A DNA stretch of 64,000 bases from a virus, in the IMG/VR virus record IMGVR_UViG_3300045125_000158, positions 62,001-126,000 of that record. One strand, written 5' to 3'. Made by a program: the position numbers and the translations under genes. This document shows positions 8,412 through 55,869 of the stretch, in pieces. The first letter of the stretch is position 1. Every line of letters starts with the position of its first letter. The notes below the pieces were generated by a model. It was not told where the DNA came from, did no database searches, and saw nothing but the letters and a program-made list of their open reading frames with translations.

Positions 8412-8735
8412 TTATGAGAATGTTAATTTTGATCGTATCGCACTAGCGTAACAGTTGCGAGCATCGTCCACAATACGCCACATTTGATGAACTGGCCCTT
8501 CCATAATTAGTGCTGTAGTTGCTGATGCAACTGTGTATGGGTTGGCTGCAGAGTTGCTTACAATTTGCGTGGCAACTGCATTGCTGACGTTTGCTGTTGC
8601 GGTAACTGTGCCCGAAACTGGTACAGTGGCGTTGACTTCGGTTGGTGCCGCCAAGTTAGTTCCGATTGCTTCAATCACAACTTTTTGACGCAGACGGTTG
8701 TCAACAACAGCATTGCTTTCAAGTAATTTATTCAT
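8412..8735 (-). CDS. Small virion-like protein
   Basis: 107 residues, MNKLLESNAVVDNRLRQKVV to IRSKLTFS. The ATG overlaps the stop of the preceding gene as ATGA, a sign of translational coupling, which decides the start over one three codons upstream. The middle is Ala/Val/Thr-rich (VPVSGTVTATANVSNAVAT); the end, VHQMWRIVDDARNCYASAI, resembles short proteins found beside phage fibre genes. Function unknown. Confidence 0.6.
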   Translation of the reverse strand: MNKLLESNAVVDNRLRQKVVIEAIGTNLAAPTEVNATVPVSGTVTATANVSNAVATQIVSNSAANPYTVASATTALIMEGPVHQMWRIVDDARNCYASAIRSKLTFS

Positions 8736-9031
8736 TCTGCGCAAAGATCTTGCAAACTTTCTTCACCTGGTAGATCAAGGTATATCTGCAAAACATCACT
8801 TGAACTCATAAGAGTAGTATTATAGTCTAGCGTAAGCACATTGCTTGCAAAACTTACAGCACCTACAGATGAACTTGCAAAATTATAAATTATTGTATTT
8901 GCAGTTACATTTGTAATCAAAAGAATATTTGCCAAACTTATTGTTTGTGCTAAATTTGAAAAAGTAATAGTTTGCGCAGCTGGGTTAAAAGTATAGGTGC
9001 CAGTAACATCATAACCTAATAATTTTTTCAT
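8732..9031 (-). CDS. Small beta-rich virion-like protein
   Basis: 99 residues, MKKLLGYDVTGTYTFNPAAQ to GEESLQDLCAE, mostly alternating hydrophobic beta strands. It follows the fourth (Gly-X-Ser)n fibre gene by 16 bases and overlaps the next gene by four bases. Proteins of this size and type often accompany tail-fibre genes in large phages. No catalytic motif is seen. Confidence 0.6.
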   Translation of the reverse strand: MKKLLGYDVTGTYTFNPAAQTITFSNLAQTISLANILLITNVTANTIIYNFASSSVGAVSFASNVLTLDYNTTLMSSSDVLQIYLDLPGEESLQDLCAE

Positions 9032-9047
9032 AATACGATCTCCACTA

Positions 9048-12000
9048 TTATAAAGCTATCGACATTGCAATAACAAACGCCTCAGTAGCTCCACCTGCTA
9101 TTCCTGAGAATCCTGAAATACCAGAATATCCTGAATAACCACTGTTGCTTGAATAGCCACTAAGACCAGAATAACCAGAATAACCACTCGTGCTCGAATA
9201 TCCTGAATAACCAGAGATACCACTGTAACCAGAATAACCGCTAAAACCTGATATGCCTGAATATCCTGAATATCCACTTCTGCCCGAATATCCACTATAG
9301 CCACTTATGCCTGAATATCCGGAATAACCGCTATACGCCTGAATATCCAGAATACCCAGAAACACCTGAATATCCACTATAACCTGAAATTCCGCTGTAG
9401 CCAGAATATCCACTATCGCCAGCTCTTGTAAAACTTACTTCATAAACATCTGATACACTTGGCGATCCAGAGTTGACAACGTTTGTTACAGAAACAATAG
9501 CTCCATCAGTCTGCATCGTAATTGCAGTTATATTAAATATAGAAAACTGTGTTGGGTTAGTGTTTTTTACAAAAGTTAAACTGCCTTTTATTGCATTTGT
9601 ACTGTCATCCCAAGTATTAATCCAGCCTGAAATGTTTCTACTTAAATTATCTGTATAACTAAAATATATAGATGTACAGGTTGACAAGGTATCATTATTT
9701 GTATAAAAATATTTTTGGCGAATAGATGCCTGGAAGATATATAATATATTGGTATGTTGTAGTATTTGCTCCTAAGCCTTTGTATCCACTATATCCAGAG
9801 AATCCACTATAACCACTATAACCACTATAACCACTAATACCTGAGTATGCACTATAGCCACTAATGCCTGAATAACCAGAATATCCGCTTATTCCACTAT
9901 ATCCTGAATACCCACTTAAAGATATCAAGCTCCAATAAGTAGGACTTATATCTGGTTGATTTCCTAATTGGAAACTTAAACTTACGTAACTACTTCCATT
10001 ATAAGTTACAACATCATTCTTGTTATATGCAACACCAGAATCCCAGGTGCCTACATAATTAAATCCTAATCCACTATAGCCACTATAACCAGATATTCCA
10101 CTGTATGCAGAGTATCCGCTTCTACCTGAATATCCACTATATCCTGATATTCCGGAATATCCAGAGTAACCACTAACTCCAGAATATCCACTATAACCAC
10201 TTCTGCCAGAATATCCAGAAATACCACTGTATCCACTATAACCACTAATACCTGATATGCCTGAATATCCTGAATATCCACTCACGCCAGAATATGCACT
10301 ATACCCACTAATCCCCGAATATGCTGAATAACCTGACAAACCAGAATAACCAGAGTAACCACTTGGGCCAGAATATCCAGAATAACCGCTTGCTACTATA
10401 GCCCGAATAACCACTAGGTCCTATATACCCAGAATAACCAGATAATCCACTTGCGCCTTGTGAACCCTCGTAGATACCTGTAGACAACATGCTATAGTGA
10501 TCAGTGCCTTCATAATAGTAGTAGACAGTAATGTTACTTGAATGGGTTGTTTGCACATAGATTTTTAGAACCAAACGATCGGCTGCGTCAAGATAATAAA
10601 CACTTGTAAAAGCATAATTGCTTATAAATAATTCAGGGTTAGCAAGACTTGTATTTGTTAATTCATCAGAAGTTGTGCTAAAAATAAGCGTTTCGGTTCC
10701 ACCATTACTTCGTTTATAGAGCTTGTAAACAAAAGTTGTTACACCATTAGCACTATCAATTGCATAAAATGTATTGAACCGCCAAACGCCAACAGGTATA
10801 GAAGTAATCGCAGGTTGTCCATAATTAGTTATTAGAGATACTAATAATTTTTGCCCGTCACCCGATGCAACTGTTGTATTATAACTTGTTTCAGCATCAA
10901 AATCGGGCACCTTATCCCATTGATAATAACCACTGACACCATGCGTGGGATCATAAACTAAGTCATCATGATTTGTGGGATAAAATATAACACCAACCGC
11001 AGGTAATCCACTAAAGCCAGAAAAACCGCTTGCACCACTATAGGCGCTATATCCGCTTATACCACTATAAGCAGAATAACCAGATCTACCACTATAGCCA
11101 CTGTATCCGCTTGTTGATGAATAACCTGAATATCCAGAAATTCCTATATAACCGCTATATCCACTAATTCCACTACCGCTATAGCCCGAATATCCACTAG
11201 GACCGGTCATAGCAAAATTGAAGCCGCACAAGTCCGTATCATCAAGAGCATCAGCTGGTGTTGCCAAAACAGTTACTGATAATTCATAATAAGTTGTACG
11301 ATCCGTAATCGAATTTATTTGAAGATAAGATCTTTCAGTGGCAGCTGATCCTCTTATACTTATGTAGGCTCTACTGGCATACGCTGAATTAAGCATAGTG
11401 CTGACTAAGGTATACGCATTGTTGCCAGAATAGTCAGTGTAATCTAACCATAGCTTGGTTATTGCAGCCTGATTTGCTGGACTGTCACAGTGAAAACTTT
11501 GCGAATCGGGCGCAACATTTGTTGACTTTGCTGTATCAAATATATAGAAAAACAAACCACCAACAAGCGCCTACAGCACCAGACGCTCCTGAATAACCAC
11601 TATAACCAGATGCAGCTTGAATAACCAGAATAACCGCTAATACCAGAGTAGCCACTGTAACCAGATACTCCGCTATAGGCAGAGTAACCGCTACGACCAG
11701 AATATCCCGAATAGCCACTTAATCCAGAATACCCACTATAACCAGATGCTGAAGAATATCCACTATAACCACTAAAACTACTGAAACCAGAGTATCCACT
11801 TATTCCGGAATATGCAGAATACCCACTTATTCCGCTATAAGCACTATATCCGCTTACGCCAGAATATCCAGAGTATCCGCTGATTCCAGAATAAGCAGAA
11901 TATCCACTATTTCCTGAGTAACCGCTATAGCCACTAAAGCTACTATATCCAGAGAATCCACTTATTCCGGAATATGCAGAATATCCGCTTGTTCCTGAAT

Positions 12001-12670
12001 AACCACTGTAACCACTACCGCTAAATCCTGAAAAACCGCTCAGACCTTCAATGCCCGAATATCCCGACCTACCATTTCCTACTATGGTGAATGCAATTTT
12101 GTCATCTGTAGTAAAAGACGCATTAAAATAACGATTTATTACTGGCCATGAATAGATAGCATTTACATAGGTAAGTGGCCCTGTAATTTCAAAAATTGCG
12201 TTATTATTTTCATTTCCATATTTTCGCAAATCTATAAAATCACCAAATTTTATAGTTTGCAGCCAATTTTCGGTACTAATAAATCCAATATTATATGCGC
12301 TTACTTGCAACTCTGTTGCTGAAGAAATGTCAACATTATTCAAATTAACATATCTTTCTGGTGGCGGAGCGGAAACTGTAGAATCCCAATAATAAAGATT
12401 TACGTTGCCAACAATAATACCATCAACACCAGAATAGCCACTATAGCCTGAACGTCCACTATATCCAGAATAACCACTATAGGCACTATATCCACTATAG
12501 GCAGAATATCCGCTATACCCAGAAAAACCACTGCTGCCTACCGCTTGAGGCTGGTTTATCCATTTTTGTGTAGCATCATCATAAACAAGGATATCGCCAT
12601 CAACTGGTGATGACAAATTAACGTCGCCCTGTTCTTTAATACCATCAGGTATGCGAAATGCTGAACCCAA
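9048..12670 (-). CDS. Collagen-like (Gly-X-Ser)n fibre protein 4, many frameshifts
   Basis: About 1,200 residues after joining at least six frames. The N-terminal region (FRIPDGIKEQGDVNLSSPVD, then DILVYDDATQKWINQPQA) resembles phage fibre N-termini. Long (Gly-Tyr/Phe/Ile-Ser)n tracts follow, interrupted by globular modules. One module at about 12070-12420 contains YINPxx-like strands. One at about 10480-11000 is large and beta-rich. A carbohydrate-binding-like module at 9917-10065 reads VGTWDSGVAYNKNDVVTYNG. A last module at about 9420-9700 contains ISGWINTWDDSTN and VYEVSFTRAGDSG. It ends GGATEAFVIAMSIAL. The start is uncertain: TTG at 12670, or a frameshifted ATG about 15 bases upstream. 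Confidence 0.8.
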
Positions 12671-12721
12671 AGTAGATGCTCCATATCATAGTTGCTATGA
12701 CTATGAATTATTACAAAAAAT

Positions 12722-13218
12722 TTATACCATGTCCTTGTGCTGTGCCAACAATTTTTCAACTGCATCAACAACTATATTGGGCTCGACAAAATCTACCGTA
12801 TTGAATTCAACAGCTTCCCAAAATCCAAATTGATCAGGTCTCAAGTTCTTACGATCTTTCAACAGATTCACATTTTGATCATAACCAAAAATATTCGGAT
12901 CAGATTTACCGAATATAACAACGCCCCTCTTTTGGTAGTATGTAGCAAAGTGCTGAAAAAAGAATCTACAGAAATCCAACAATCTGCGTCATTCAATAAT
13001 TCACGTAATTCCACCAAGCTGAGATTAAATTTTAATTCATTAGCGCCAACGTTTGCTTCACCATTTACTCCAATCTGTATAATGTAATATCCTTTAAAAC
13101 GCAACATATTCACAACTTCTTTCCAATAAGGATAATTTTTAGGATTTATCTTTTCAGGATCAGTTGGATTTTTCTTTCGCAATTTTTGCGCATATGGGCT
13201 TATTATAATTTTTTTCAT
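12722..13218 (-). CDS. GT9-like glycosyltransferase half, frameshifted
   Basis: It starts MKKIIISPYAQKLRKKNP at ATG 13218 with AGGAG nine bases upstream. The frame changes near 12970-12985. The joined product, about 165 residues, has the pattern of the C-terminal Rossmann half of heptosyltransferase-type (GT9) enzymes: LRELLNDADCWISVDSFF, then QHFATYYQKRGVVIFGKSDP. The matching N-terminal half seems to lie at the C-terminus of the preceding gene, which it overlaps by four bases. The two products may act together or once have been one enzyme. Donor and acceptor are unknown. Confidence 0.65.
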
Positions 13219-14243
13219 AGCCACTTGCTCCTAAATGCATCTACAAGCTTGCCTTTCCAATTCTTTTCCGTCATAAATTTATAGATATTATGTTCTTCTA
13301 TTTTATTATCAATCTTTTGTGCATCGCCAATTGAGATAAGCGGGATATTATCATCAGCAAAAACTTCTGGATATGAAACTGCAAGTATCAAGTTTTTATC
13401 GTTATACTTTTCTTTAATTTCAGGCAAAATCATCTTAAATGCATAATGATCACCCATACCGCAGTCTAATACAATTATCTTATTTTCCTTGAAGTAGATA
13501 CCGTATTCTTTTAATTTACGTGCGAATATTTTTTCATCATGTTCCCAGAAAAATTCTGATTCATACGATCTGATACCACCGCTAGGTGATCGCAAATGCC
13601 AAATAACTGCACTTGAATCAACTAGCAACTTATAACCTGCGCGTTTCATTTCATACGTAAACATGGTTTCTTCACGATGACCAACAGGGCTCAACTCCAT
13701 GCAATAACCATGCTTTGCCGCCTCTTTACGAAATAAGAAACTATTATTCATGTGATCAACTTCTTGGACGCCACTGAATCTAAACCATTGCAAATTAGGT
13801 TTTGTGTAAATATCTTCTATTTTGCTTGAAGCAATTCCAGTATGTACATGATTTTCACCAGGAACGAGAACAAGGCCGCTAATTGCCCCAACATCATCAG
13901 CTATATGACTGACTAAAATCTCAAGAACATTTGCTTCTGGTGTATCATCATCATCAACTCGCCAAATCCATTCGGTATTAGCCACATGTATAGCCATCTG
14001 GTGATTATGAACTTGTCCTTTTCTTTTTCCAAAAATACATTCAAACTCTATATTTTTTGTGGCAAATAGAGCGAATATGCTTGCATAAACAGGATCGTTA
14101 CGCAGATCCTTCTGCTCGCCATCATCAAACATAAGAACTTTCTTTGGTTTATATGTTTGCTGTGCAATACTTAGCAGGCACATAGGCAGCGTTGTGTTAT
14201 ATCTATTTTTTGTAGAAATTTCTACGGTAACATCAATGTGCAT
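13215..14243 (-). CDS. GT2 glycosyltransferase fused to a GT9 N-terminal-like domain
   Basis: 342 residues, no frameshift. Residues 1-230 form a GT-A fold: VEISTKNRYNTTLPMCLLSI, a DXD-type WRVDDDDTPEAN for metal and nucleotide-sugar binding, and a later SPVGHREETMFTYEMK segment. Residues 255-342 start KIIVLDCGMGDHYAFKMILP and resemble the N-terminal half of GT9 enzymes. The next gene supplies a GT9 C-terminal half. The start overlaps the end of the FkbM methyltransferase gene. It belongs to the sugar island; the acceptor is not evident. Confidence 0.8.
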   Translation of the reverse strand: MHIDVTVEISTKNRYNTTLPMCLLSIAQQTYKPKKVLMFDDGEQKDLRNDPVYASIFALFATKNIEFECIFGKRKGQVHNHQMAIHVANTEWIWRVDDDDTPEANVLEILVSHIADDVGAISGLVLVPGENHVHTGIASSKIEDIYTKPNLQWFRFSGVQEVDHMNNSFLFRKEAAKHGYCMELSPVGHREETMFTYEMKRAGYKLLVDSSAVIWHLRSPSGGIRSYESEFFWEHDEKIFARKLKEYGIYFKENKIIVLDCGMGDHYAFKMILPEIKEKYNDKNLILAVSYPEVFADDNIPLISIGDAQKIDNKIEEHNIYKFMTEKNWKGKLVDAFRSKWL

Positions 14244-14919
14244 CTTTATTAGCCTCGTGTATAAATTCTATTGTTGCTAAATCACCCGAAACTGCATCGC
14301 CTTCATAAAATCTTTTACCAATCTTATAACCAATAAGATCCATCAACTCAAAAACCTTTTCGTCATTTGTTTCTATAAAAATTGGTGGCCTATATTTTAG
14401 TATCGTTCGCATGGCACCCAACAATACATTATACTCTGCTCCCTCTACATCTATTTTGATGAGAGTAACATTCTCAATGTTGAAATTATCTAGAGGCATG
14501 ATATCAACATCATTGCCGTCAACAACTTTGATCATGCCAGAATTATTTTCTTTTGGCTCTATAATCTTGCATTTACCTCTGATTGCTCCCAAGGCGCAGT
14601 TATATGCAATTACTTTTTGATCTGCGATATTTTTCTTGAGCAAATTGTAATTAGCTACATAAGGCTCAAAACAATAAATAAGTTCATGTTCGAGAAAGTT
14701 AGTAAAATATTTTGCATGATTACCTATATTTGCCCCAACATCAACTATTGTATTATGTTTTGGATACATTTTCTTTATATATCGCAAAACATAAAATTCA
14801 TAGAACTCTTTGTTTATTTGTAAGATATTAGAAATATATTCGGGTTGATCATAAATGTTTATTGCTATTGTTCTATTTTCTTCAAATATACTTATTTCTT
14901 TAGTTGCGGCAAGATTCAT
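14233..14919 (-). CDS. FkbM-family SAM methyltransferase
   Basis: 228 residues starting MNLAATKEISIF at ATG 14919, which follows GGAGG by five bases and overlaps the stop of the RmlA gene as ATGA. Motif I reads IVDVGANIGNHAKYFTNF (SAM binding), motif II CFEPYVANYNLLKK. The FkbM-typical IKIDVEGAEYNVLLGA is near residue 150. FkbM enzymes O-methylate sugars or other hydroxyls in surface glycans and natural products. In this operon it probably methylates a sugar made or transferred by its neighbours. Confidence 0.88.
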   Translation of the reverse strand: MNLAATKEISIFEENRTIAINIYDQPEYISNILQINKEFYEFYVLRYIKKMYPKHNTIVDVGANIGNHAKYFTNFLEHELIYCFEPYVANYNLLKKNIADQKVIAYNCALGAIRGKCKIIEPKENNSGMIKVVDGNDVDIMPLDNFNIENVTLIKIDVEGAEYNVLLGAMRTILKYRPPIFIETNDEKVFELMDLIGYKIGKRFYEGDAVSGDLATIEFIHEANKDAH

Positions 14920-15652
14920 TTTTCCTCCATCATGCAATTTCTTGCAATTTGATTTGCTTTAAATAAGCTCTCAAAAGTACCTGCGTCAGTCCATTCATCG
15001 GTCAAAAATTCGTAACTCATCAAAGATTCATCAATATAAAGATTATTCACATCTGTAATTTCTAGTTCATTTCTTTTACTCGGCTTGATTTGCTTGATAC
15101 GATCAAATACGCTATTGTCATACAAATACATACCAGTAACAGCAAAATTACTCTTGGGCTTTTTTAGGCTTTTCTTCAATTCCCACCAACTTTCCATCAA
15201 TTATATTAGCAACTCCAAATCTTTCTGGATTATCAGTTTTGCTAAGGAAAACTTTTGCACCCGAATTAAAATTTGCAACGGATGATGCATTGAATTTCTG
15301 CGCTAAAAATATTATCGCCCAAAATAACGTTAACATTTGAGCCACAAGAAAAATTTTCTGCTAGGCTTAACGCTTGAGCTATACCACCAGCCTCATCTTG
15401 TACTTTATATGAAAATTCCACATTATATTCTTTACCACTACCAAGCAATTGAGATATGTGTCCGCAGAAGTCAATACTAGTCACAATCAAAATTTCTTTA
15501 ATCCCTAAATCAATGAGTGTACTCAATGGATAGAATATCATTGGCTTATTATATATTGGCAACAGGTGCTTATTTGTAACACGAGTAAGTTGACCAAGAC
15601 GAGATCCAGTTCCACCAGCAAGCAAAACGCCTTTGATATAATTTTCTTTCAT
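14916..15652 (-). CDS. rmlA: Glucose-1-phosphate thymidylyltransferase (RmlA), two frameshifts
   Basis: It starts MKENYIKGVLLAGGTGSRLG; GVLLAGGTGSRL is the nucleotide-binding signature. The motif continues NKHLLPIYNKPMIFYPLSTL, VQDEAGGIAQAL and NVILGDNIF. Shifts near 15290-15340 and 15170-15200 lead to NPERFGVANIIDGK, VGIEEKPKK and FAVTGMYLYDN, then to LTDEWTDAGTFESLF. Joined length is about 244 residues, slightly short for RmlA. It makes dTDP-glucose from glucose-1-phosphate and dTTP, the first step of the dTDP-rhamnose route. GAGGTG precedes the ATG at 15652. Confidence 0.9.
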
Positions 15653-15676
15653 TAAATACACCTCAGATTAACTTTC

Positions 15677-16489
15677 TTATTGACAATAATTGAATACACA
15701 TCTTTCCATAGCATCAATTGCCGAAGGCATATAAATACCCATATTGTCTAATTTTTGCACACTCAGCACACAGTTTGATCTACGAACTAATGTCATTTTA
15801 TCGAGTTCATTTTCTTGTATAAGTTGATAATCCAACTTTTTGCCGGATATCTTTTCATAATGCTGCAGAATACGACCATGCGTTATGCCACCACGATTTA
15901 CTACGTTATAAATTCCTACAGCATTCTTCTGCAACAATGCCTCTGTAGCTACTAAAAGATCAGGTACATAAGTTATTGAATTGCTTGCTTCAACAATCTT
16001 GTTATAATTTAATAGTTTTGATAATAAATTTCGCGAATTTCTATTATGATGAAATGGCATACGAATTCTTAGTTGCAAAACAGGCAGAATCTTTTAAATA
16101 CCTTTCGGATACAATTTTTGTCCATGCATAATAATTACCATCCCAATTAGGAATATCTTCTTCAGAATAACCTTTTCCATCATTATCGCCTTGATATGTG
16201 CATCCACTACCAATATGCACCATTTTGGCATTATATTCTTTACATGAATTGTAGATGATAGTTGGTAATACTACATTAGCAAAAAAGTATCTTCTTTGTT
16301 GCTTTCGCACCAATCAATATTTGGTCTACCAGTTTTGCCTGCACAATTGATAACTACATCTGGTTGATAATAATTAAGTAAATCATCCATCTGCTCTTGC
16401 GTCATTATTTTATAAGTGTAACAATAACAATTAAAGTATTTGCTATACTCTTGACCTAAAAAACCGTTACCAACAATAAGATGCTTCAT
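15677..16489 (-). CDS. RmlD-like NAD-dependent sugar reductase/epimerase, two frameshifts
   Basis: Three frames join to about 270 residues. The Rossmann start is MKHLIVGNGFLGQEYSKYF. PDVVINCAGKTGRPNIDWCE follows. After a shift near 16280-16310 comes MVHIGSGCTYQGDNDG, then YYAWTKIVSERYL, the YxxxK catalytic pair. After a shift near 16060 come YVPDLLVATEALLQKNAVG and IYNVVNRGGITHGRI. The order resembles RmlD (dTDP-4-dehydrorhamnose reductase) and related short epimerases. It lies between RmlA and a methyltransferase. Exact substrate cannot be read from sequence. Confidence 0.78.
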
Positions 16490-16496
16490 TATTACC

Positions 16497-17170
16497 TCAT
16501 TTTTTCTTCACAATCGCTGTGATACTTCTGCTGTCTCCACGTACATCGAACACTTCTATTTTATCGGTATTGGTAGCAATATAATTCACGTTTTCCGGCG
16601 ATAGGTAGATTGTCTGTAAAAACTTTTGGTCTGCATATCTTTTTATTACGTTATATACGGTGAATTCGTAATCCGGAGTAATTTTATGATAAGCCATATG
16701 ATTAGGCCATAACTACCTAATGAGGCATGTAAGTCTTCTATGATGTAGTAACCACCTTTTTTAAGATACTTAAAAAATATACCCCAAGTTATTTGCGTAT
16801 GTATAGTATCATGTCCGCCATCATCTATGATAATATCAAAATTACCACCATACATTTCTACGAATAATTTGATTTTTTCCTCATCTATTTGGCTACAATT
16901 AAAGCTACTAATTCTATCTTCATGTACCAAAAATTCGGGTACATAATCTATTCCAAAAATTGCCGCATAAGGAAAATATTCTTTCCACATACGTAGGGAA
17001 GCACCTTTAAAAATTCCAATTTCAAGAACTCGCCGTACTTTGTGTCTAGATTCGTAGAATATATTATTATATATAGATGCAAAATTATGCGGCAAAAAAT
17101 TAGGGTCATGTTGATATATACTACCTTTGTCAGAGCCATATTTGTCAGCCAATTCCGTAAGAAGATCCAT
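16497..17170 (-). CDS. Class I SAM methyltransferase, frameshifted
   Basis: The start MDLLTELADKYGSDKGS at ATG 17170 overlaps the RmlB stop as TAATG. DKYGSDKG and VLEIGIFKGASLRMWKEYFP (motif I) are typical of sugar O-methyltransferases related to macrocin/mycinose enzymes. FDIIIDDGGHDTIHTQITW and GGYYIIEDLHAS complete the core. A shift near 16700 leads to MAYHKITPDYEFTVYN and the C-terminal end. Joined length is about 224 residues. It probably methylates a deoxysugar produced by the adjacent Rml-type enzymes. Confidence 0.8.
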
Positions 17171-18131
17171 TAGGGTCTGCTCCAACAATTTGAAACAATA
17201 TTACTGCAATACCACTCAACTGTTTTGGCAAGGCCATCTTTAAACTGATATGAAGGTTGCCAACCCAATTCTTTAAGTTTACGACTATTTATATCATATC
17301 GTAAATCATGCCCCAATCTATCAGGGACAAATTCTATAAAACTTGCATCTTTATTTAATAAATCTAAAAGCATACCTGTCAACATCAAATTTGTAACTTG
17401 ATTACCGCCACCAATATTGTATATCTGACCTGGCTGACCTTTATCTAATATTAATTTTATAGCACGGCAGTTATCTTCAACATGAATCCAATCTCTTATG
17501 TTTTGTCCATTTCCATAAATAGGAACCGTTTGATTGTCAAGTAATCTCTGAATAAAAAAAGGTATTATTTTTTCTGGATATTGAAATGGTCCGTAATTAT
17601 TAGAAGACCTTGTAATTATAATATTTTGATTGAAAGTCTTGTGTGCAGCGATACACAACATCTCAGCAGATGCCTTTGATGCACTATATGGGCTAGAGGG
17701 CCTAAGTACGTCATCTTCACGACTTGACCTGTCTGTTTTGTTTAGAGATCCATAAACTTCGTCAGTTGATATTTGCAAAAATTGTGCAACATTCTTTCTC
17801 TACAAATCTGCAGGAGATTGTTTACTCCAACAATGTTGGTTTGCACAAAAACGTCTTGGGAATCTATAGATCTATCTACGTGACTTTCTGCTGCAAAATT
17901 TACAACTATATCATCTGGCTGCACAATATTGTAAATTGATTCGTAATTACAAATATCAGCAATTACATATTCGTAATTTGTAAAAATAGAAAATTCATCA
18001 TGCACCAACTTATTTGCAGCATAAGTCATTTTATCAATGTTTAATATTGCTGTTTGCGAATCATCTTTTAAAAGACAGCGTATAAAATTTGATCCAATAA
18101 AACCAGCCCCACCAGTTATAACATATCGCAT
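17170..18131 (-). CDS. rmlB: dTDP-glucose 4,6-dehydratase (RmlB), one frameshift
   Basis: It starts MRYVITGGAGFIGSNFIRCL; GGAGFIGSN binds NAD. NFAAESHVDRSID follows. Near 17770 the frame shifts and continues as STDEVYGSLNKTD, with the catalytic YSASKASAEM and RSSNNYGPFQYPEKIIP, both typical of RmlB. The end overlaps the methyltransferase start. Joined length is about 320 residues, normal for the family. It converts dTDP-glucose to dTDP-4-keto-6-deoxyglucose. Its ATG at 18131 overlaps the stop of the upstream glycosyltransferase as TGATG. Confidence 0.92.
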
Positions 18132-18941
18132 CAAATATCTCCAGATTTAAATATTTCAAATGATTTTTCGTTGGGCATATCAACCGTGCCAGTCCAATTA
18201 CCTTGCAGAGCAAGAAACTGCATATTATTAGTATCGCTGAAATTCAGGGCCAAACTTTACACCGGTTTCTTCATAAGCTCCAGCATACTCCACATCATAA
18301 CGCAGCCATCCCAAATGTTCAGCATATATGTTAGTTCTACCATACATTAATCCCCGATATTCGCAGAAAGCGTTATAACCATGCATTCCAGGTCCATTCT
18401 GACCCATATTACAGGAAATGAATTCCATGAAATCTTTTGTTCTCACTGTATAAAACCATCCGTCAGTGTTAATATTCCAAAAATCAATATTTGGTAATTT
18501 TTCTTGCGGAATATTTTCTATAAAAACATCATTTTTATGGTCAATGTGCATTGTTCTTTGCAATTGCACGGACACGGCTCCAATAAAATTATTATTCTGC
18601 AAAAGCATAGAACATTTTTTCAACCAATTATTTTGCGGATCAATAATTTTTAAATCTAAATCAGTAAAACATAAATATTCATATTTCTTATAAATATCTA
18701 ATAAATATTTATTTATCAACCATACATTGCCAAAATAGTTTTTGTACATCTGTATATAAGCATAAATACTTTTATTTTTTAACAAATGCTTACAATAGCT
18801 TTGTATAAGATGTGAGCGTGTTGACTTATTATCTATAATAATAAAATCAACATGATCATTATAATTAATTACACTGTCTACTGATGGAATCAAAAAATCT
18901 AAAATTTTCCAACATCTACCAACAACTAGAGTGCTCTTCAT
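18131..18941 (-). CDS. Glycosyltransferase-like protein (GT-A type), one frameshift
   Basis: About 270 residues starting MKSTLVVGRCWKILDFLI. It has a GT-A-like core: VDFIIIDNKSTRSH, then YLCFTDLDLKIIDPQNN with a DLD metal-binding motif, then a C-terminal WFYTVRTKDFMEFIS region. Near 18240 the frame shifts and continues to EKSFEIFKSGDI, ending at the TGATG junction with rmlB. The family within GT-A is not certain. It probably adds one sugar of the same glycan as its neighbours. Confidence 0.68.
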
Positions 18942-18953
18942 CAAAAAGCCTTT

Positions 18954-28633: not shown

Positions 28634-28684
28634 CAAATATCTCCTCTATTGGCTGATTTAAATATCGACCAATACAGAGACAGA

Positions 28685-29928: not shown

Positions 29929-29949
29929 AATTTTTTATCGACTGCAAAC

Positions 29950-38669: not shown

Positions 38670-38674
38670 ATATA

Positions 38675-42125: not shown

Positions 42126-42133
42126 TATTTATA
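42126..42133 (-). promoter_or_regulatory. Second T4-type late promoter-like box
   Basis: A second exact TATAAATA on the minus strand in the same gap upstream of fibre gene 2, followed downstream by the first copy. No other gene or RNA is visible in the gap. Confidence 0.4.
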
Positions 42134-42190
42134 CTTTATACTATAGAAGAAATAAAACATTATTTACAAGAAAAAATAATAAAATAATTA

Positions 42191-43615: not shown

Positions 43616-43624
43616 GGCGGCTCC

Positions 43625-44043: not shown

Positions 44044-44058
44044 GTTTGTTTTCCTTTA

Positions 44059-47000: not shown

Positions 47001-50000
47001 TAAATCCTGAAATTCCTGAGTATGCAGAATATCCACTAAATCCTGAAATTCCAGAATAGCCACTATACCCGCTGAAACCTGATATGCCTGAGTAACCGCT
47101 ATAACCGCTAAAGCCCGATATACCTGAATATCCTGAATATCCACTAAATCCAGAAATTCCTGAATAGCCAGAATAACCGCTATAACCTGAAATACCACTA
47201 TATCCAGAGTAACCGCTTATTCCGCTGTATCCTGAATATCCGCTAAAGCCAGAAATTCCACTATAGCCTGAATAGCCACTAAATCCCGATACACCAGAAT
47301 AACCACTATAACCACTACGACCACTATAGCCCGAATATCCGCTATCGCCAGCTCTTGTGAAACTTACTTCGTAGACATCATAATTAGCTGTTCCAACATT
47401 AGCATTTGCTGTGTTAGTAACCCATACAGTGAAGTGATTTGTATACCCTGAAACTGCTGTTATATTAAAGAATGAGAATGTGGTTTGATCACTACGTAAT
47501 ACAAAATTAAGACTACCTTCAACTGAATTTGTACTTGCACCCCAAGTTGCTAGCCAGCCAGAAAGGTTTCTATTTAGATAGTCAGTTTTACTTATAGAGA
47601 TCCATGTTGGATTCGAGAGAAGACCTGTACTTGGGACAAAAAGTTGACTACCAGGATCGGTTGTTGGATCAAATGAGAGAGTGTCTGAAAGATACCATAA
47701 GCTTGTATTAGCACCAAGACCTTTATAGCCACTATAACCAGAAAATCCAGAATACCCACTAAATCCAGAGACACCAGAATAAGCAGAGTATCCTGATCTG
47801 CCAGAATATCCTGAATACCCGCTGAATCCAGACAGTCCTGAATAGCCACTATAACCACCTAAATCCTGAAATTCCTGAATATCCAGAGTATCCACTAAAT
47901 CCACTTATACCTGAATAGCCACTATACCCACTCAATCCTGATATTCCACTATATGCTGAATAACCACTAATTCCACTTATGCCTGAATAACCACTATATC
48001 CACTAAATCCAGATATACCTGAATAGCCACTATAACCGCTAAACCCTGATATTCCTGAGTAACCAGAATATCCACTAAAACCACTTATGCCAGAATAGCC
48101 ACTATATCCGCTAAATCCACTCGGTCCTGAATAGCCTGAATAACCACTGAATCCTGAAGGTCCACTGTAACCAGAATATCCACTGAAACCTGATAGGCCT
48201 GAATATCCACTATAACCACTAAATCCTGATATTCCAGAATAACCTGAATAACCACTGAATCCACTGATGCCTGAATATCCAGAATAACCGGATCTGCCTG
48301 AATATCCACTATATCCGCTGAAGCCTGATATTCCAGAATATCCTGAATAACCACTAGATCCAGCAACGCCAGAGTACCCAGAATAGCCGCTAGTACCGCT
48401 ATAACCAGAATATCCGCTATCGCCAGCTCTTGTATAACTTACTTCATAAATACCATATGTCGGTGTTCCAACATTAGCATTTGCAGTATTAGTAACCCAT
48501 ACAGTAAAGTGATTTGCATACCCAGACACTGCTGTTATATTAAAGAAAGAGAACTTAGTTTGATCATCACGATAAACAACATTAAGACTACCTTCAATTG
48601 GATTTGTACTAGATCCCCAAGTAGCTAACCAACCTGACAAATTCCTATTTAAATAGTCAGTTTTGCTTATAGAAATCCATGTTGGATTCGAAAACAAACC
48701 TGTGTTTGGGTTGATAAAAGTACTTCCTGGATCAGTGCTTGGATCTACAAAGAAATTATCAGTAAATTCATATAATGTTGTATTAGCACCTAAACCTTTG
48801 TAACCGCTATATCCACTAAATCCGCTATAGCCACTTCTTCCTGAATATCCTGAATATGCACTGTAACCGGAAATGCCTGAATATCCAGAATAGCCACTAA
48901 CGCCTGAAATTCCTGAATAGCCACTATAACCGCTAAATCCAGATATTCCACTATATCCTGAATAGCCGCTAAATCCAGATATACCAGAATAGCCACTATA
49001 TCCGCTAAATCCACTCGGTCCTGAATAGCCTGAATACCCGCTAAAACCTGATAATCCCGAGTATCCACTATATCCACTTCTACCTGAATAGCCTGAATAT
49101 CCAGATGTACCAGATTCCCCATATGCAACTAATTCTGCACAAAAGTAGGTGCCTGTTGAATCAGATGTACCGCCATATTGAGCTTTTTGTGTTGAATCCG
49201 TATAGGCAGTAAAATCTATATAATCTGTAGAACCATTCATGTAAATGAGCCTAGACGCATTTACGCTGTTTCCCGTAGATGTAAATAGTGGGCTTTGACT
49301 AATAGAAATTGTATTATTATTTTTTCTTATCTGTATATTATTTTGACCAACAGTAGTAGCTGCAGCATCCCACCATATATTTAATAGCACCTGATAATAA
49401 CCGGCGACAGTTGGAGTGAACTTATAATTAACCCCATCCCACCAATTCAGCGGATCAACAAAGTCAACAAATTGTAAAACCCTATCGGCACTTGCTGTTA
49501 TTGTTTGATCCGCAGTAAGCTTGCCAACCACTACATAATTACTTGGAGCTAAAGTTGAAGCTGCACCTGAATAACCACTTATTCCTGAATAGCCACTGTA
49601 ACCAGAAATGCCGCTGTAACCACTGTAACCTGATATCCCTGAATAACCACTATAACCAGAAATGCCGCTATAACCAGAATATCCCGACAACCCTAAGCCA
49701 CTATAACCGCTATATCCACTAAACCCACTTATACCACTATATCCAGAATAACCACTAGATCCTGATATGCCAGAGTATCCGGAATAGCCGCTAGTACCGC
49801 TATAGCCAGAATATCCACTATCTCCAGCTCTTGTATAACTTACTTCATATATATCATAAGTTGGTGAACCACCGTTCGCCGTGTTTGTAACCAAACAGCA
49901 AAATGATTCGTATAACCTGAAACTGCTGTAATATTAAAGAACGAAAACTTTGTCTGATCAAAACGATTTACAAAATTAAGGCTGCCTTCAATTGGATTTG

Positions 50001-52570
50001 TACTCGCACCCCAAGTTGCTAGCCAGCCAGAAAGGTTTCGATTTAAATAATCGGTCTTGTTTATAACTATCCAGCTTGGAGATGTTAGATTTCCAGTACT
50101 AGTAGTGAAAAATGTACCGCCGGGATCGTCTGATGGATTTAAAACAAGGCTATCAGTGAATTCATAAAGTGTGGTATTAGCACCTAAACCTTTATATCCA
50201 CTAAATCCACTAAATCCACTATAACCACTTCTACCAGAGTATGCGGAATAACCAGACAGCCCACTATATGCTGAGTAGCCAGATAAACCTGAAAATCCAG
50301 AATAACCACTCGATCCAGAAACGCCTGAGTATGCAGAATATCCGCTTAATCCTGAAAAACCAGAATAGCCACTTAAACCTGAATATGCAGAATATCCACT
50401 TAGCCCTATATAACCACTATAACCACTTAATCCTATGTAACCGCTATATCCTGAAACTCCAGAGCCACTAAATCCCGAATATCCACTAAATCCGCTAGTA
50501 CCGCTATAACCAGAATATCCACTATCTCCAGTTCTTGTGAAACTTACTTCATAAATACCATATGTCGGTGTTCCAACATTAGCATTTGCAGTATTAGTAA
50601 CCCATACAGTAAAGTGATTTGCATACCCAGACACTGCTGTTATATTAAAGAAAGAGAACTTAGTTTGATCATCACGATAAACAACATTAAGACTACCTTC
50701 AATTGGATTTGTACTAGATCCCCAAGTAGCTAACCAACCTGACAAATTCCTATTTAAATAGTCAGTTTTGCTTATAGAAATCCATGTTGGATTCGAAAAC
50801 AAACCTGTGTTTGGGTTGATAAAAGTACTTCCTGGATCAGTGCTTGGATCTACAAAGAAATATATCAGTAAATTCATATAATGTTGTATTAACACCTGAA
50901 GCCTTCTGTAACCGCTATAGCCGGAAACGCCAGAATAACCACTATAGCCACTAATCCTATGTAACCGCTATATCCTGAAACTCCAGAGCCACTAAATCCA
51001 GAATAACCACTATAACCACTACGACCACTATAGCCAGAATATCCACTATCGCCAGCTCTTGTGTATAACTTACTTCATATATATCATATGTTGGCGAACC
51101 ACCGTTTGCTATGTTTGTAACCCAAACAGCAAAGTGATTCGTATAACCTGAAACTGCTGTAATATTGAAGAACGAAAATTTTGTTTGATCAAAACGATTT
51201 ACAAAATTAAGGCTGCCTTCAATTGGATTTGTACTGGCTCCCCATGTAGCTAACCAACCTGACAAATTCCTATTCAAATAATCAATCTTGTTTAGAACTA
51301 TCCAAGATGGATTTGTGAAGTGTCGAATTATTGGTGGTTAAATAGGTACTACCAGGATCATCTGATGGATTTAAAACACTTACGTCAGTAAATTCGTATA
51401 GTGTTGTATTCGCACCGATACCTTTATATCCACTATATCCAGAAGTACCAAAATAACCACTATAACCGCTTAAATCCATATAACCGCTATATCCTGAAAC
51501 TCCAGAACCACTAAATCCTGAATATCCACTCTATGCAGAATAGCCACTAGGACCAGAATAACCGCTATATCCACTAGCAGAAGAATAACCACTATACCCA
51601 CTAAATGAGGAAAAACCAGAATATCCACTCAATCCCAAACCACTATAACCAGAATAACCACTGAATGACCAAAACCAGAATATCCTGAATATCCACTGGC
51701 TCCATTTGATCCAATAACTCCATTTATACCAGAAAATCCACTAAATCCTGAATATCCACTATATCCGCTCTGTGTGTACATTACTTGCTGTGCAGTAACA
51801 ATTACTGAAGGAATATCTGGTCTTACGGGATTTGTTTTTACCAGTTTCAGCAAGCAACTGCATAGCAGAGTCAGGACTCGACCATGCTAATTCAATATAA
51901 TCACCTGCATTCAACTCCAGCATCAAATTAAGAGCTGCTAGCACCTTTTCCATTATTGGCATGTACCATGATAATTGGTGTTGCTATTTGATATGTCACT
52001 ATTCATTCAAACGAAACCAAATATCAAAATCATCATCACCAGCGTCTGTTTTGTACAGCTGCATCGAAAATTGAATATTATAAACGCCTGGATATTGAAA
52101 AGTTAATTTAGTATCTATCAACAATACTGACACCATGACTATCTGGATCAGTAGAACCAATATGAATAATATTTCTATATTGAGTTGCCTTCAGAATATC
52201 CACTATTCGTTTGTGTATTTGTATCGTAGAAACGACTCCCCAATACCCTAAAACGCCACCAGTACCAGATGGCTCCACTATAGCCACTATAACCACTAAA
52301 CCAGAATATCCACCGTCCACTATGGCTACTATAACCACTCAATCCTGAATAACCAGACACACCAGTGTAGCCACTGTAACCGGAATATCCACTAACTGAG
52401 CTGCCGCCCGAAGTTCCATTTGCCTCTATGTAAGTTACTCTACTGGCTAATTCATCAAGAGCTAACTGTACGGTACCAGGAAGTGTTGTCCAATTAATAA
52501 CCGTCGTAGGCAGAAATGTAATTTCACTTGCCTTTAGATATCTGAGCAAATTACGCGGTACATATGGCAT
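44059..52570 (-). CDS. Collagen-like (Gly-X-Ser)n fibre protein 1, about 2,830 residues
   Basis: It starts MPYVPRNLLRYLKASEITFL at ATG 52570. The region LPGTVQLALDELASRVTYIE is a common phage fibre N-terminal pattern. A C1q-like part (51750-52230) follows. Then come (Gly-X-Ser)n tracts in a 12-residue superrepeat, GYS-GYS-GIS-GFS, separating at least six copies of a beta module: LNRNLSGWLATWGASTNPIE, FSFFNITAVSGYTNHFAVWV, YDIYEVSFTRAGDSG. A second C1q-like domain lies at 49118-49566. The last residues are VIAAAAKIYAYRGFR. Many breaks are present, densest at 45650-46150, where the sequence itself looks unreliable. Confidence 0.78.
45650..46150 (-). other. Unusually disrupted stretch of fibre gene 1
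   Basis: The (Gly-X-Ser)n coding pattern is recognisable but broken every few tens of bases, with inserted bases and non-repeat words. Flanking tracts keep one frame for hundreds of bases. It looks like poor consensus in a repeat, or decay. Confidence 0.6.
48436..48755 (-). repeat. 320-base module copy A in fibre gene 1
   Basis: This stretch is identical by eye to 50541-50860. It encodes one beta module between (Gly-X-Ser)n tracts, including DDQTKFSFFNITAVSGYANH. Confidence 0.85.
49118..49566 (-). other. C1q/TNF-like globular domain inside fibre 1
   Basis: About 145 residues between two (Gly-X-Ser)n tracts. The pattern is YVVVGKLTADQTITASADRV, FTPTVAGYYQVLLNIWWDAA, IQIRKNNNTISISQSP and IYMNGSTDYIDFTAYTDST, ending YFCAELVAYG. 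This strand order and the GYYQV and FCAELVAYG strands match C1q-like jelly rolls. In animals such domains cap collagen stalks and trimerise; here it is internal, with further repeats after it. Confidence 0.65.
50541..50860 (-). repeat. 320-base module copy B in fibre gene 1
   Basis: Identical by eye to 48436-48755, spaced 2,105 bases apart, while other copies of the module (about 44310-44690, 46190-46580, 47340-47740, 49850-50200, 51050-51480) have diverged. Confidence 0.85.
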
Positions 52571-52589
52571 TTAAACTATTAATTCCATT

Positions 52590-53419
52590 TCATTTTTTTA
52601 TTGCAAATTTACCTATTTCGTTATATAATATTTGTGGATTTTTAACATCAATTCCTTTACGACGCAGACTTTGGTATAACAAAATTCCAACCCCAGCAAC
52701 TATTGCTGCATTGATACTGCTTCCAGACATTTCAACAAATTGCGAATTTATATAAGTAGTTTCAAAATTTTGTTTTGGCAAAATAAGGCCTTTAAATTTA
52801 TTATTATTTTTAATTGTTTGTATACCACTAAATTTTGTAGAATAACCAATTGAGAAAACTTCATCATATCTTGCTGGATACTGGACATCTCGGGTTTTAA
52901 TCTCACAATTACCTGCTGCTGCAAACATTGCATATTCCAGCACGATGGGCCTTTTTATTACATCATGTAATCCATCATGCTCAGTTTGACACCAAACGAC
53001 ATTAATATCATATCAACATCTCTTACAATAGACCATAATATTGCTTCTATAACTGATTCTATCGTATTTACAGAATAATTGTCTTGTATTATTTTTGCAA
53101 AATAAAGATCAGTTTCAGTCGCCAATCCTGTAATTGCACTTTTATTATTTGCTGCAATGATTCCAGTTACTGCAGTAGAATGACCAAATGTGTCATAGAC
53201 ATTTTCAGTATCTGTAAAATTTTTACATTTATCTTCGTTGCATCGAATATCAATGTGTGACGGAAAGCCACTGTCAATTACGCATAGGCGAACGTGCTTG
53301 CCATCACCTTGTATGTTTTCAAATCCAAAATAGCTTGCCGAATACTGCGTTCTACGCAATACTTTACTTCGCACTTTGCTGATATCTATCTTGCTCTGTT
53401 TTATTTGGCCATAGTCCAT
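52590..53419 (-). CDS. Subtilisin-like serine protease (S8), one frameshift
   Basis: All three catalytic motifs are visible: Asp in VRLCVIDSGFPSHID, His in TFGHSTAVTGIIAANNKS, Ser in EMSGSSINAAIVAG. The oxyanion Asn is in FAAAGN. The two halves are joined by a shift near 52950-52970, between LMSFGVKLS and GLHDVIKRPIVLEYAMF. About 276 residues from ATG 53419 (AGGA upstream); a TTG at 53449 is also possible. No signal peptide is seen, so it would act in the host cytoplasm or be packaged in the virion. It lies directly before fibre gene 1, so it may process fibres or other virion proteins; that is inference. Confidence 0.87.
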
Positions 53420-54155
53420 TGATGATCCTGTAGTGATTTCCCTTGCCAAAAAATTCTATATTATAATTCAAATTTTTAATATCCAAAAACTCTACATTTT
53501 TTCGCAAACAAATACCTGCATGCAAAGTAAACAAATCATCTGTTAGAATATTTAGAACATCTATTTATTTCATCAATTTTTTTACATAAATCATTTTTAT
53601 TCGGCAAATAATAAACTTGCGACATATTTAATATAAGATTATCTTTTATATATTGTCGCAAATTTTTATCAACTATAGAAACGCCAGTATTTGTTTTGAC
53701 TGTTTTGTTTTTAGGATAATAACCAAGACTGTATATCCTTCTCCACGCCAGGTTTGATTTGCTAGTTTAAATAATATTTGAAAATAGGCACTTATCTGAT
53801 TAAGGCCTTGTTATAGAATATTTCATAAAATTCATTTGCATTTTGATCTAACGCAACAAACATCACCGTTTTTTTCAATAAACCCATATTTAAGGCTTGC
53901 TTTGTAAATTACTGCAAAAATTAGATGCTTGTATTGTTGGCGTAAAATTAATTACAATATCGAAATCATGCACCGCACTCGTATAGCCACTTATCACGTT
54001 AATATTCTTATTAAATCTTAACAAAAGATAACTTTGCTCTTCAACAAAAAGATTAATATCACAGCTCTGGATATAATCTTTTGTAAACACTTAATTAGAC
54101 TAGTGGACGCTAGGACAAACCACGGTTGCTCAAAATTTAGAATAGCAATTTTCAT
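53364..54155 (-). CDS. GT9-like glycosyltransferase, heavily frameshifted
   Basis: The start MKIAILNFEQPWFVLASTSL at ATG 54155 overlaps the preceding stop as ATGA. Pieces in different frames read DINLFVEEQSYLLLRFNKNI, VHDFDIVINFTPTIQ, LAWRRIYSLGYYPKNKTV, VSIVDKNLRQYIKDN and ILTDDLFTLHAGICLRKNVE. The order matches heptosyltransferase-like (GT9) proteins. At least four breaks occur, more than in neighbours of this size, so it could be a real pseudogene. The end is uncertain and may overlap the protease start. Confidence 0.5.
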
Positions 54156-54709
54156 GATCTATTTCTCTTAAAATTTGAAGCCTTACCAATGTCAATTTCT
54201 ATAGGATCATCACCTAGAGTCTTCTCTACTGATTTATTGTGCCTTTTTGACTTTGCTATGTTTTCAACGTCTTTTCTGGCTTCAAGTTGCGATTTCTGAT
54301 ATTCATTGATTATTTCCATATCACCACTTTTAATCGCGTCTTTGACCGATCTGCAATTATTAACGAAATTTTCTGGCAAATCGTCAATACATTTGAAATC
54401 ATAAATACCTGAAAACAAATAATCTTTGCCCATGTAGTTAATATACATTTTTGTTTTCTTCGTATTATGCAAATACAAAATTCCATTTTCTATTTCAGTC
54501 TGGTCTCCAAGATAATTTTGCGTCAAAAAATTATCTTCAATCAATTGCACAATTTCATCGCCACCTGCTTCTATGTACTCGGTAACATATATGACTTCTT
54601 TGTTTGAAATCTCATCATGTATGCTCTGTAAATCATTGATATCATATATTTTGACATCTTGATCGCATATTGTTACTGTTTTTTGTTTTGGATTTATCAA
54701 AACAATCAC
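54152..54709 (-). CDS. Hypothetical protein
   Basis: 185 residues with no break. The GTG start overlaps the preceding glycosyltransferase stop as GTGA. It begins MIVLINPKQKTVTICDQDVK. A GDEIVQLIEDNFLTQNYLGD segment and a charged C-terminal helix (KSGDMEIINEYQKSQLEARK, KSVEKTLGDDPIEIDIGKA) follow. I do not recognise it. It sits between two glycosyltransferases in a coupled operon, so a role in the same process is possible. Confidence 0.6.
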   Translation of the reverse strand: MIVLINPKQKTVTICDQDVKIYDINDLQSIHDEISNKEVIYVTEYIEAGGDEIVQLIEDNFLTQNYLGDQTEIENGILYLHNTKKTKMYINYMGKDYLFSGIYDFKCIDDLPENFVNNCRSVKDAIKSGDMEIINEYQKSQLEARKDVENIAKSKRHNKSVEKTLGDDPIEIDIGKASNFKRNRS

Positions 54710-55869
54710 TGTGCAACTCCTGTTTTATATACATTATCTAGTTCTCTCTTTGCCCAAGCACCAACCACGTCACCCTGCAAATTATTTATTATAAACTTTT
54801 GTAAATGTATGTTTTTATTTTGTTGCATTTTATAGTTATTCACAAAATCACGTAATGCATCCGCAAAATTATCTGTAAAATTTTCACCTAATTTTGGGAA
54901 TTGATACTGATCCCAATAATAAACATCTGTAAAATTTTCTGAAATTTCTAACTCATCAATATCAACTAAATAGCTATTGTTTTCATCAAGAAAATCTCGC
55001 GGACCCCCATAATTTATTGTAATAACAGGCAAATCACACAAGAAGCCTCGCATAAAGGTAATCCGAAACCTTCACCACGACTTGTTAAAACAAATGCATC
55101 AAAAGCTGAGTAAAAACTTGGCATCATATATTCTGGTATATTTTTGTAAGTAATGTAAATGTGCGGATGTTCAGGATATCTTTTCAATATATCGTCTATT
55201 TGTTTTCTTATTTTATTTTGTTGCTTGATAGATTTTTCCGCAATAAGTACTACTAAACTGACATCATCTTTTTTATTAAAAGCTTTACAAAAACTATGCA
55301 ATAAAGCATCTGTTCCTTTTCTGTACCCAAAAGTTTGTACGCTAAGAAATTTAAAGCTTTTCAAAGCTGGCCTAGAAACCTACTGTATTTACAGTTTTCT
55401 TGTATAAATTACAATTTATAATTGGATGTACTACATCAATTGTTTTTTTGTAACCGCTATCTATAAATGATTGTTTGCAAAAATTACTAGTAACCCACAA
55501 TTTATCATAGGAATTTGCTATATCAATAAAATTCTGCGGCACTCTGTTTGTTTCTGCCGTCGTGTATAAAATATTATATGCCTTTTTTGTTTTTGCACTT
55601 TGCGTTGCGACTACACTATCTATCAATATCGCATCACTGCCCAAAGGTTTTCGCAATAGAGACAAAATTCTAGTTTCAACTTCGTTCAATGTATTTTGAT
55701 TGTTTACAGGCTCAATTGCTGTTACAGATTTATGACGATGTAGACAAAATGCTAAATTTCTATTAACCTTAGCGTAGCCCGTATTATCATAAAAATGTCC
55801 ACGCACTATGACTTCAGTATTTTTACCACTTTCAATTGGCGTAACTTCTTCTTGTTTTTCCATCTGCAT
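54706..55869 (-). CDS. GT4-family glycosyltransferase (GT-B), two frameshifts
   Basis: About 385 residues in three frames. The N-terminal domain (VIVRGHFYDNTGYAKVNRNL) has the pattern of GT4 phage and bacterial enzymes. After a shift near 55370 come FLSVQTFGYRKGTDALLHSF and the donor-binding FVLTSRGEGFGLPLCEA, the EX7E-type motif. After a shift near 55050 come DLPVITINYGGPRDFLD and a helical end. GT4 enzymes are retaining transferases using nucleotide sugars. The stop overlaps the next gene by four bases. Confidence 0.85.

Follow-up and report, generated by a model that had tools for sequence, protein, structure and literature searches.

We analysed 64,000 nucleotides of viral DNA (the window; bases 62,001-126,000 of the 187,259-bp IMG/VR virus record IMGVR_UViG_3300045125_000158), in which the long coding stretches lie mostly on the minus strand. 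The window carries genes for collagen-like fibres with (Gly-X-Ser)n repeats and, among and beside them, genes for glycosyltransferases, methyltransferases and nucleotide-sugar synthesis. We consider it probable from the sequence that the fibres are the substrate of these enzymes, with which the phage would glycosylate its own collagen-like tail fibres. Most likely, this is a transferable phage module for glycosylating such fibres. The original prediction had proposed that a resident sugar island decorates the fibres. Judged from the sequences of relatives, a pair of genes for a GT2 glycosyltransferase and a GT9-like enzyme is the constant part and co-occurs with (Gly-X-Ser)n fibres across phages, but the large island with a giant fused enzyme and Rml genes is not constant.

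Collagen-like fibres

The motif SGxSG[YFWI]SG occurs 736 times on the minus strand of the window (overlaps counted) and 0 times on the plus strand, in three blocks covering 21.4 kb by motif span (Table 1). A three-triplet DNA pattern matched at 316 sites in the record, against 0 for the reversed pattern. Three repeat open reading frames (ORFs) match the Pfam family Collagen (PF01391; 7e-55, 9e-42 and 1.8e-29), and the repeat also matches tail fibre and collagen-like minor tail families (PHROG 1806 and 30509). Among 1,012 triplets, the third position is Ser in 90.7%, with 13 Thr and no Cys or Trp. The second position is Tyr in 54% and Pro in about 1%; Tyr and Phe fill most of these positions, and Lys is rare in the repeat. 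Ser codons come near-equally from the AGY (475) and TCN (443) families, and this mixture suggests that selection acts on Ser itself. These values agree with the Tyr/Ser-rich fibres first described for the window. The four fibre genes counted there are plausible, with starts near 52.6, 42.0, 38.7 and 12.7 kb, the exact number being blurred by frameshifts; block 2 probably represents two genes, with starts near 41985 and 38669. The fibre genes sit among structural genes, and a virion role is predicted from this position. The domain between the repeats (predicted model with a local distance difference test score, pLDDT, of 68.5) had no meaningful match in the PDB, and a 353-residue structural protein at 42.5-43.5 kb had no relatives in phage records or IMG/VR.

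The GT2/GT9 pair

The GT2 gene and the GT9-like gene lie next to fibre block 3. The C-terminal stretch of GT2 and the next gene together form a GT9-like enzyme. Separate GT9-like proteins score below the PF01075 cut-off; in contig G028 the two are fused in one protein, in which both PF00535 and PF01075 (3e-5) are over the cut-off. A search of IMG/VR with GT2 gave 121 relatives; at the best 80 of these, the GT9-like gene overlaps GT2 or lies within about 150 bp of it in 71 loci. The open frame of GT2 is maintained at 43-86% identity to the window's copy. An AlphaFold model of GT2 (pLDDT 91.8) is similar to GT-A enzymes in the PDB, among them peptide GalNAc-transferases, chondroitin polymerase and TarS, at a template modelling (TM) score of about 0.5. 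A PDB profile search with GT2 returned the glycosyltransferase 'GalT1', a marginal match (E 0.19) that was not used.

By a crude hydropathy scan, the pair and the Rml proteins have no clear membrane helix, and the enzymes are probably soluble. GT2 is rare outside phages: when 84,980 species genomes were searched with a peptide pattern, 3 relatives came up. Two of the three, in binned Nitrospirae and Nitrosotalea sequences that look phage-like by eye, have a repeat fibre adjoining or within about 1.3 kb; the third, on a Verrucomicrobiales contig, is without one.

Co-occurrence of the pair with the repeat

The association was examined in 54 records of at least 60 kb, with the repeat called by a two-triplet pattern and GT2 counted at E<=1e-50. 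They comprise 30 records of the capsid clade, 18 from the GT17 search, and G000, G003, G004, G024, G028 and G035; G002, a near-copy of G003, was excluded. All but the discovery records (n=51) were chosen by size from the capsid search (50 largest of 80 loci, plus G001) and the GT17 search, and the repeat content of some was known beforehand. G008, G085 and G089, which have weak short GT2 matches and no repeat, were counted as GT2-free. The repeat is present in 7 of 9 records with GT2 and in 0 of 45 without (Fisher 2e-7; 4/6 versus 0/45 and 6e-5 when the discovery records G000, G003 and G004 are left out, with shared ancestry uncorrected in both tests). With the strict three-triplet pattern, G024 was the one match when the 50 largest of the 80 loci from the capsid search were examined. 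Many relatives with only one of the two partners were to count against the original prediction; that pattern did not appear among the large records (54), but in 37 of the repeat loci (69) neither gene was found in the short stretch examined, as discussed below.

At least three repeat motifs lie within 10 kb in 21 of 54 GT2 clusters, compared with 3 of 74 capsid clusters (p 9e-7) and 4 of 44 GT17 clusters (p 9e-4). The genomes of all three repeat-bearing capsid clusters also have GT2, as do the records of at least three of the four repeat-bearing GT17 clusters. In the reverse direction, a DNA-pattern search for the repeat gave at least 119 loci, 69 with a real repeat ORF and 50 without. GT2 and/or the GT9-like protein was found in 32 of the 69 (27 of 62 clusters) and in 0 of the 50. 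All 32 have one or both of these genes on the strand of the fibre, 13 within 200 bp and 28 within 1.5 kb. Mapped on a GT2 tree of 63 rows, presence of the repeat is spread over the tree and needs 10 changes, against a shuffled mean of 21.

Fibre and glycosyltransferase genes might travel as one cassette without acting on each other, and the repeat near GT2 is indeed often directly adjacent and on the same strand, as in a mobile cassette. We scanned 25 GT2 records whole, including 18 of the 55 loci without a repeat near GT2. In 6 of these 18 the repeat is elsewhere in the record, so that both genes are retained as non-neighbours and the association exceeds mere linkage. Together with the open frame that GT2 keeps across its divergent copies, this makes hitch-hiking quite improbable.

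The enzymes could instead alter the host surface, namely O-antigen or the core of lipopolysaccharide (LPS), against superinfection, their proximity to fibres reflecting a shared host-range region. Passages of PMC7029224 read the glycosyltransferases of pelagimyophage tail-fibre regions in this way. Enzymes of the GT9 and Rml families are characteristic of the synthesis of LPS. We regard this explanation as unlikely, since GT2 tracks one repeat type and not fibres in general, its family is nearly absent from the bacterial and archaeal genomes searched (3 of 84,980 species), the pair and Rml proteins are without a clear membrane helix, and the genes lie among structural genes and on their strand. 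In the regions that were read, no gene was identified by eye as a flippase or polymerase, none having been searched for. Soluble-looking enzymes, the structural-gene strand, the single repeat type and the rarity in bacteria are together best explained by action on the fibre.

Relatives and a cultured phage

The relatives G003 and G004 (98 and 34 pattern sites) retain fibre and sugar genes. The fibre region of G004 has only an FkbM-like gene (by eye), GT2 and a GT9-like gene; its GT2 contains an intein-like insert (G004 52886-55069, L053) inside the conserved IWR-DDD region. In G035 the giant enzyme, GT2, the GT9-like gene and a repeat fibre stand in a row at the contig end, and in G024 a repeat fibre lies near the capsid gene with the giant enzyme about 84 kb away. 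G001, a close relative (capsid 93%) with repeat-free fibres, has neither repeat nor island, as expected if the two belong together; other GT2 genes occur elsewhere in G001, and GT4, GT9 and S8 protease genes are retained after its capsid gene. The N-terminal sequence of fibre block 3 resembles, by eye, that of the fibre at G003 442642.

One phage alone among 50,697 phage records, Methylophilaceae phage P19250A (freshwater host IMCC19250), matched both proteins of the pair, GT2 at E<=1e-5 and GT9-like at E<=1e-3. Its module is compact and consists of adjacent genes: gp23, a Gly-X-Ser fibre of 1,201 residues; gp24, a methyltransferase; gp25, GT2; and gp26, GT9-like. The gp23 protein (KX815270.1, L411:15750-19355) was deposited as a tail length tape-measure protein, a label that is probably wrong for this collagen-like fibre. 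The marine phage Venkman is described as a relative of P19250A in passages of PMC8163748; it was not recovered from the phage collection with two P19250A proteins as queries.

Evidence that weighs against fibre glycosylation

Several observations weigh against the proposal that the pair acts on the fibre. Neither gene was found within the stretch examined in 37 of the 69 repeat loci. Ten of these have under 1.5 kb of flank and 27, among them G003 itself, have at least that much; four of the 37 (L312, L327, L352 and L371) have GT2 on the same contig in another stretch. Of the 107 neighbouring ORFs of 15 pair-free loci, 83 were searched, and PF00535 was present, among the matches listed, in only 2 of them. 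The second Gly-X-Ser fibre of G003 (192540-195335, L058; a 931-residue frame) lies about 230 kb from the island, and no sugar gene was recognised by eye around it, at 188-200 kb. Conversely, G028 has the pair and a giant enzyme but no site of the repeat pattern over 62.5 kb, and in G038 part of GT2 lies beside a Gly-Val-Gln/Gly-Asn-Thr collagen rather than Gly-X-Ser. One GT2 clade of 18 rows, set among structural genes, has no nearby repeat (14 without, 4 too short to tell). The structural matches of the GT2 model indicate a GT-A fold only and not a substrate, and in the hydropathy scan a value above 1.8 is reached at one place in the giant enzyme and at one in the S8 protease.

The preference for Ser is also found in other collagens. 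Three capsid-clade phages, G008 (L065), G009 (L066) and L090, have Gly-Ser-Ser/Gly-Thr-Ser collagens with runs of up to 71 triplets and the same third-position Ser preference. G008 has two weak short GT2 matches only, G009 no PF00535 in 41 kb, and L090 no match to any island protein in the 17.7 kb examined. In G009 and L090 the fibre ORF reaches the end of the contig, and the absence of an enzyme there therefore says little. Since Gly-Ser-Ser fibres exist without GT2, Ser conservation alone neither calls for an enzyme nor shows glycosylation. Tyr, common in Gly-X-Ser repeats, does not occur in the Gly-Ser-Ser runs of the three fibres examined.

A different target, either phage DNA or another virion protein (capsid, neck or other fibres), would accommodate the GT2 clade in which the pair lies beside T4-type head/neck-like genes (by eye), and phage glycosyltransferases that act on DNA and on capsid or tail proteins are known, according to passages of PMC12619734. 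Such a target would leave the tie to the Gly-X-Ser repeat unexplained, and we consider it the least probable of the explanations weighed here.

The sugar island

Glycosyltransferase genes are encoded by the phages themselves, with Pfam matches in the window and its relatives. On the minus strand of the window, Pfam recognises seven GT2 stretches and a further GT2-like domain, GT17 in two locations, two FkbM domains, a GT4-type domain, RmlA, RmlB and an epimerase, together with one methyltransferase over the cut-off and one just below it. This amounts to about 18 same-strand sugar domains, or about 20 with those recognised through relatives, in keeping with the number first proposed. GT2, GT17, FkbM or other methyltransferase, RmlA, RmlB and epimerase/reductase domains all occur at 12.9-28.6 kb. 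The overlapping start-stop arrangement that had been described for these genes is mostly an artefact. Three frames of the window (19052-28645) match 2,457 of the 2,500 residues of one open frame in G003, which has five GT2, three GT17 and two or three methyltransferase matches; the pieces at 19.05-28.65 kb, which make up most of the sugar island, are thus a single giant open frame there. The 4.6-kb contig L154 (IMGVR_UViG_3300034198_030605), which has the nearest GT2 (86% identical) and the same Rml-GT2-GT9 order and probably comes from a close relative of the window's phage, also contradicts the overlapping-gene reading. It encodes RmlB (cut by the contig end), a methyltransferase, an epimerase/reductase, RmlA, GT2 and the GT9-like protein as single open frames, whereas the window has only broken copies of RmlB, epimerase/reductase and RmlA.

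Giant frames were also found in G035 (2,024 codons), G024 (1,630) and G028 (1,479), that of G035 with a rhamnosyl O-methyltransferase-type domain (PF04989, 2.4e-13). The gene order in G003 is fibres, a 331-residue protein, the 2,500-codon frame, RmlB, epimerase/reductase, a homing-type ORF (by eye), RmlA, GT2, GT9-like and fibre. The seven contigs L242-L248, which share the same GT17 match and are probably one phage, have a Gly-Asn-Thr collagen about 6 kb off, perhaps a parallel pairing.

The three sugar-nucleotide genes form a candidate dTDP-rhamnose route. The RmlB copy of G003 scores 439 bits with TIGR01181 (cut-off 365), and the best NCBIfam model for its RmlA copy is rmlA (5e-69, below the curated cut-off). 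The best PDB match of the G003 epimerase/reductase is 4qqr, '3,5-epimerase/4-reductase' (1.4e-44), which we take to be a plant enzyme; another is 7jid, 'UDP-L-Rhamnose Synthase' (1.5e-30), presumably the mimivirus enzyme. We therefore assume an enzyme of the UER1/mimivirus UDP-rhamnose synthase type, which could replace RmlC plus RmlD, so that the three genes could make dTDP-L-rhamnose without RmlC.

A model for fibre glycosylation

From the genes, their domains and their co-occurrence, we infer an acceptor residue, a sugar, an order of steps and a purpose as follows. The structural region would make long (Gly-X-Ser)n fibres, with probably soluble enzymes encoded beside them. RmlA, RmlB and the epimerase/reductase would supply dTDP-L-rhamnose or a close 6-deoxysugar. 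The GT2/GT9 pair would then attach a sugar to the third-position Ser, or possibly to Tyr instead, and begin to extend it. In glycosylated collagens, the third position can be the acceptor, as for Thr of BclA and of Riftia cuticle collagen. In megaphages, the giant GT2/GT17/methyltransferase enzyme may lengthen and O-methylate the glycan, whose sugar may be rhamnose-like; small phages with the pair alone would draw on host sugar nucleotides. The coat could stiffen or protect collagen helices that are poor in proline, or it could mask the virion or adjust its binding.

A stronger version is possible, and we put it forward tentatively: a dedicated and transferable module in which a largely phage-specific GT2-GT9 pair recognises (Gly-X-Ser)n and lays down dense sugars, to which megaphages would add a giant assembly-line enzyme and a plant/mimivirus-type rhamnose supply, the resulting coat being convergent with that of mimivirus.

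Source record, frame breaks and capsid-linked genes

The terminase piece of the record has relatives of 79-82% identity in four contigs (333, 371, 494 and 170 kb long), and the record is therefore probably a megaphage fragment; one further relative, of 51% identity, is in a 34-kb fragment. The capsid gene is fragmented, and its pieces share 70-93% identity with the G003 capsid. At 56344-59505 of the window, two ORFs (57692-58099 and 58614-59505), homing endonuclease-like by eye, interrupt the broken capsid gene. Frameshifts are abundant throughout the record. Because they also hit the capsid gene, sequence error is favoured over gene decay, and most breaks, compared with intact relatives, look like such errors. 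An alternative genetic code was rejected, as reassigning TAG or TGA gave no systematic repair of the frames.

A GT4-type gene, often with GT9-like and S8 protease genes, lies 3' of the capsid gene in many repeat-free phages, and 22 of 80 capsid-linked loci match the G003 GT4 copy. Its presence at this place in such phages led us to set apart this older, capsid-linked cassette, which occupies 52590-55869 in the window, and to reject it as part of the fibre system.

Table 1 Features of the window discussed in the text
Feature	Position	Strand	Basis and remarks
GT4-type glycosyltransferase, frameshifted	54706..55869	-	PF00534 1.9e-8
GT9-like gene (named by eye), frameshifted	53364..54090	-	Position and sequence as G003 418215-419024
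S8 subtilisin-like protease, frameshifted	52590..53449	-	PF00082 7.5e-13, 1.1e-4
(Gly-X-Ser)n fibre block 1	44059..52570	-	314 motifs at 44151-52393; PF01391 7e-55; gene number uncertain (frameshifts)
Related non-repeat domains of about 128 residues between collagen stretches	Block 1	-	11 of 15 domain matches of the record in block 1
(Gly-X-Ser)n fibre block 2	31003..41985	-	345 motifs at 32004-41763; PF01391 1.8e-29, 9e-42
Conserved protein between fibre block and giant enzyme	28685..29773	-	Relatives in G003, G001, G004 (by eye); no Pfam match
Giant fused enzyme (GT2, GT17, FkbM and other methyltransferase domains), in pieces	19046..28636	-	Pfam; G003 frame
Candidate further glycosyltransferase	18228..18944	-	No Pfam match; GT-A-like 'TDLDL' stretch by eye
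RmlB-like dTDP-glucose 4,6-dehydratase, frameshifted	17170..18134	-	Pfam
Probable methyltransferase	16646..17188	-	Named by eye, no Pfam match; between RmlB and epimerase/reductase, as in L154
3,5-epimerase/4-reductase, frameshifted	15677..16489	-	Pfam Epimerase; start placed by eye
RmlA-like glucose-1-phosphate thymidylyltransferase, frameshifted	14916..15661	-	NTP_transferase 2e-23, 7e-16
FkbM-family methyltransferase	14233..14937	-	PF05050 1.4e-13
Core GT2 gene (GT-A domain and apparent N-terminal half of GT9-like domain)	13215..14243	-	PF00535 6e-12
GT9-like C-terminal half, apparently shortened by frameshift	12868..13224	-	Alignment; fused to GT2 in G028
(Gly-X-Ser)n fibre block 3, after GT9-like gene	8732..12670	-	77 motifs at 9125-12532

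Significance and comparison with known systems

Phage virion glycosylation and the glycosylation of viral collagens are kinds of process already known; the genetic module looks new, and no report of a GT2/GT9 pair with a collagen-like fibre was found in searches of the open-licence literature. If the proposal is true, it provides a concrete virion substrate for phage glycosyltransferases that are often read as modifiers of host surfaces or DNA, and explains the large sugar gene sets of megaphages. The question is testable now because P19250A, a small cultured freshwater phage, has the module in four adjacent genes. The analysis also brought to light phage glycosyltransferases fused into giant frames of 1,479-2,500 codons.

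BclA of the Bacillus anthracis exosporium is a collagen-like protein whose acceptor is Thr in Gly-Pro-Thr. The abstract of PMC6222408 describes rhamnose and an O-methylated deoxysugar on it, as proposed here for the fibre, in the unrelated setting of a bacterial spore. The virion proteins of mycobacteriophages carry glycans (Freeman et al. 2023, cited in PMC12619734), which the passages place at the C-termini of capsid and tail-tube proteins and not on a collagen repeat. Pelagimyophages have glycosyltransferases, GT8 most commonly, in the variable region of their tail fibres, where they are read as modifying the host O-chain (PMC7029224); sugar genes among fibre genes are common to both cases, whereas the passages mention no tie to a repeat. 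The repeat of the window matches PHROG 1806, PHROG 30509 and PF01391, which are generic families, and differs from generic collagen-like fibres in its scarce Pro, its Tyr or Phe in most second positions and the associated enzyme pair.

Another parallel is with mimivirus, for which passages of PMC9614988 describe collagen-like proteins, glycosylated fibrils, the enzyme L230 and a rhamnose route through R141/L780. Both systems have collagen-like virus proteins, virus-encoded glycosyltransferases, a rhamnose route and sugar methylation, predicted in our case, and the epimerase/reductase matches the UDP-L-rhamnose synthase 7jid. The two differ in that mimivirus is a eukaryotic virus whose L230, according to the same passages, hydroxylates and glucosylates Lys, whereas the window belongs to a tailed phage with a Gly-X-Ser repeat that has little Lys and with GT2, GT9 and GT17 enzymes; no lysyl hydroxylase was noticed, none having been searched for. 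These comparisons suggest a phage counterpart to the glycosylated fibrils of mimivirus.

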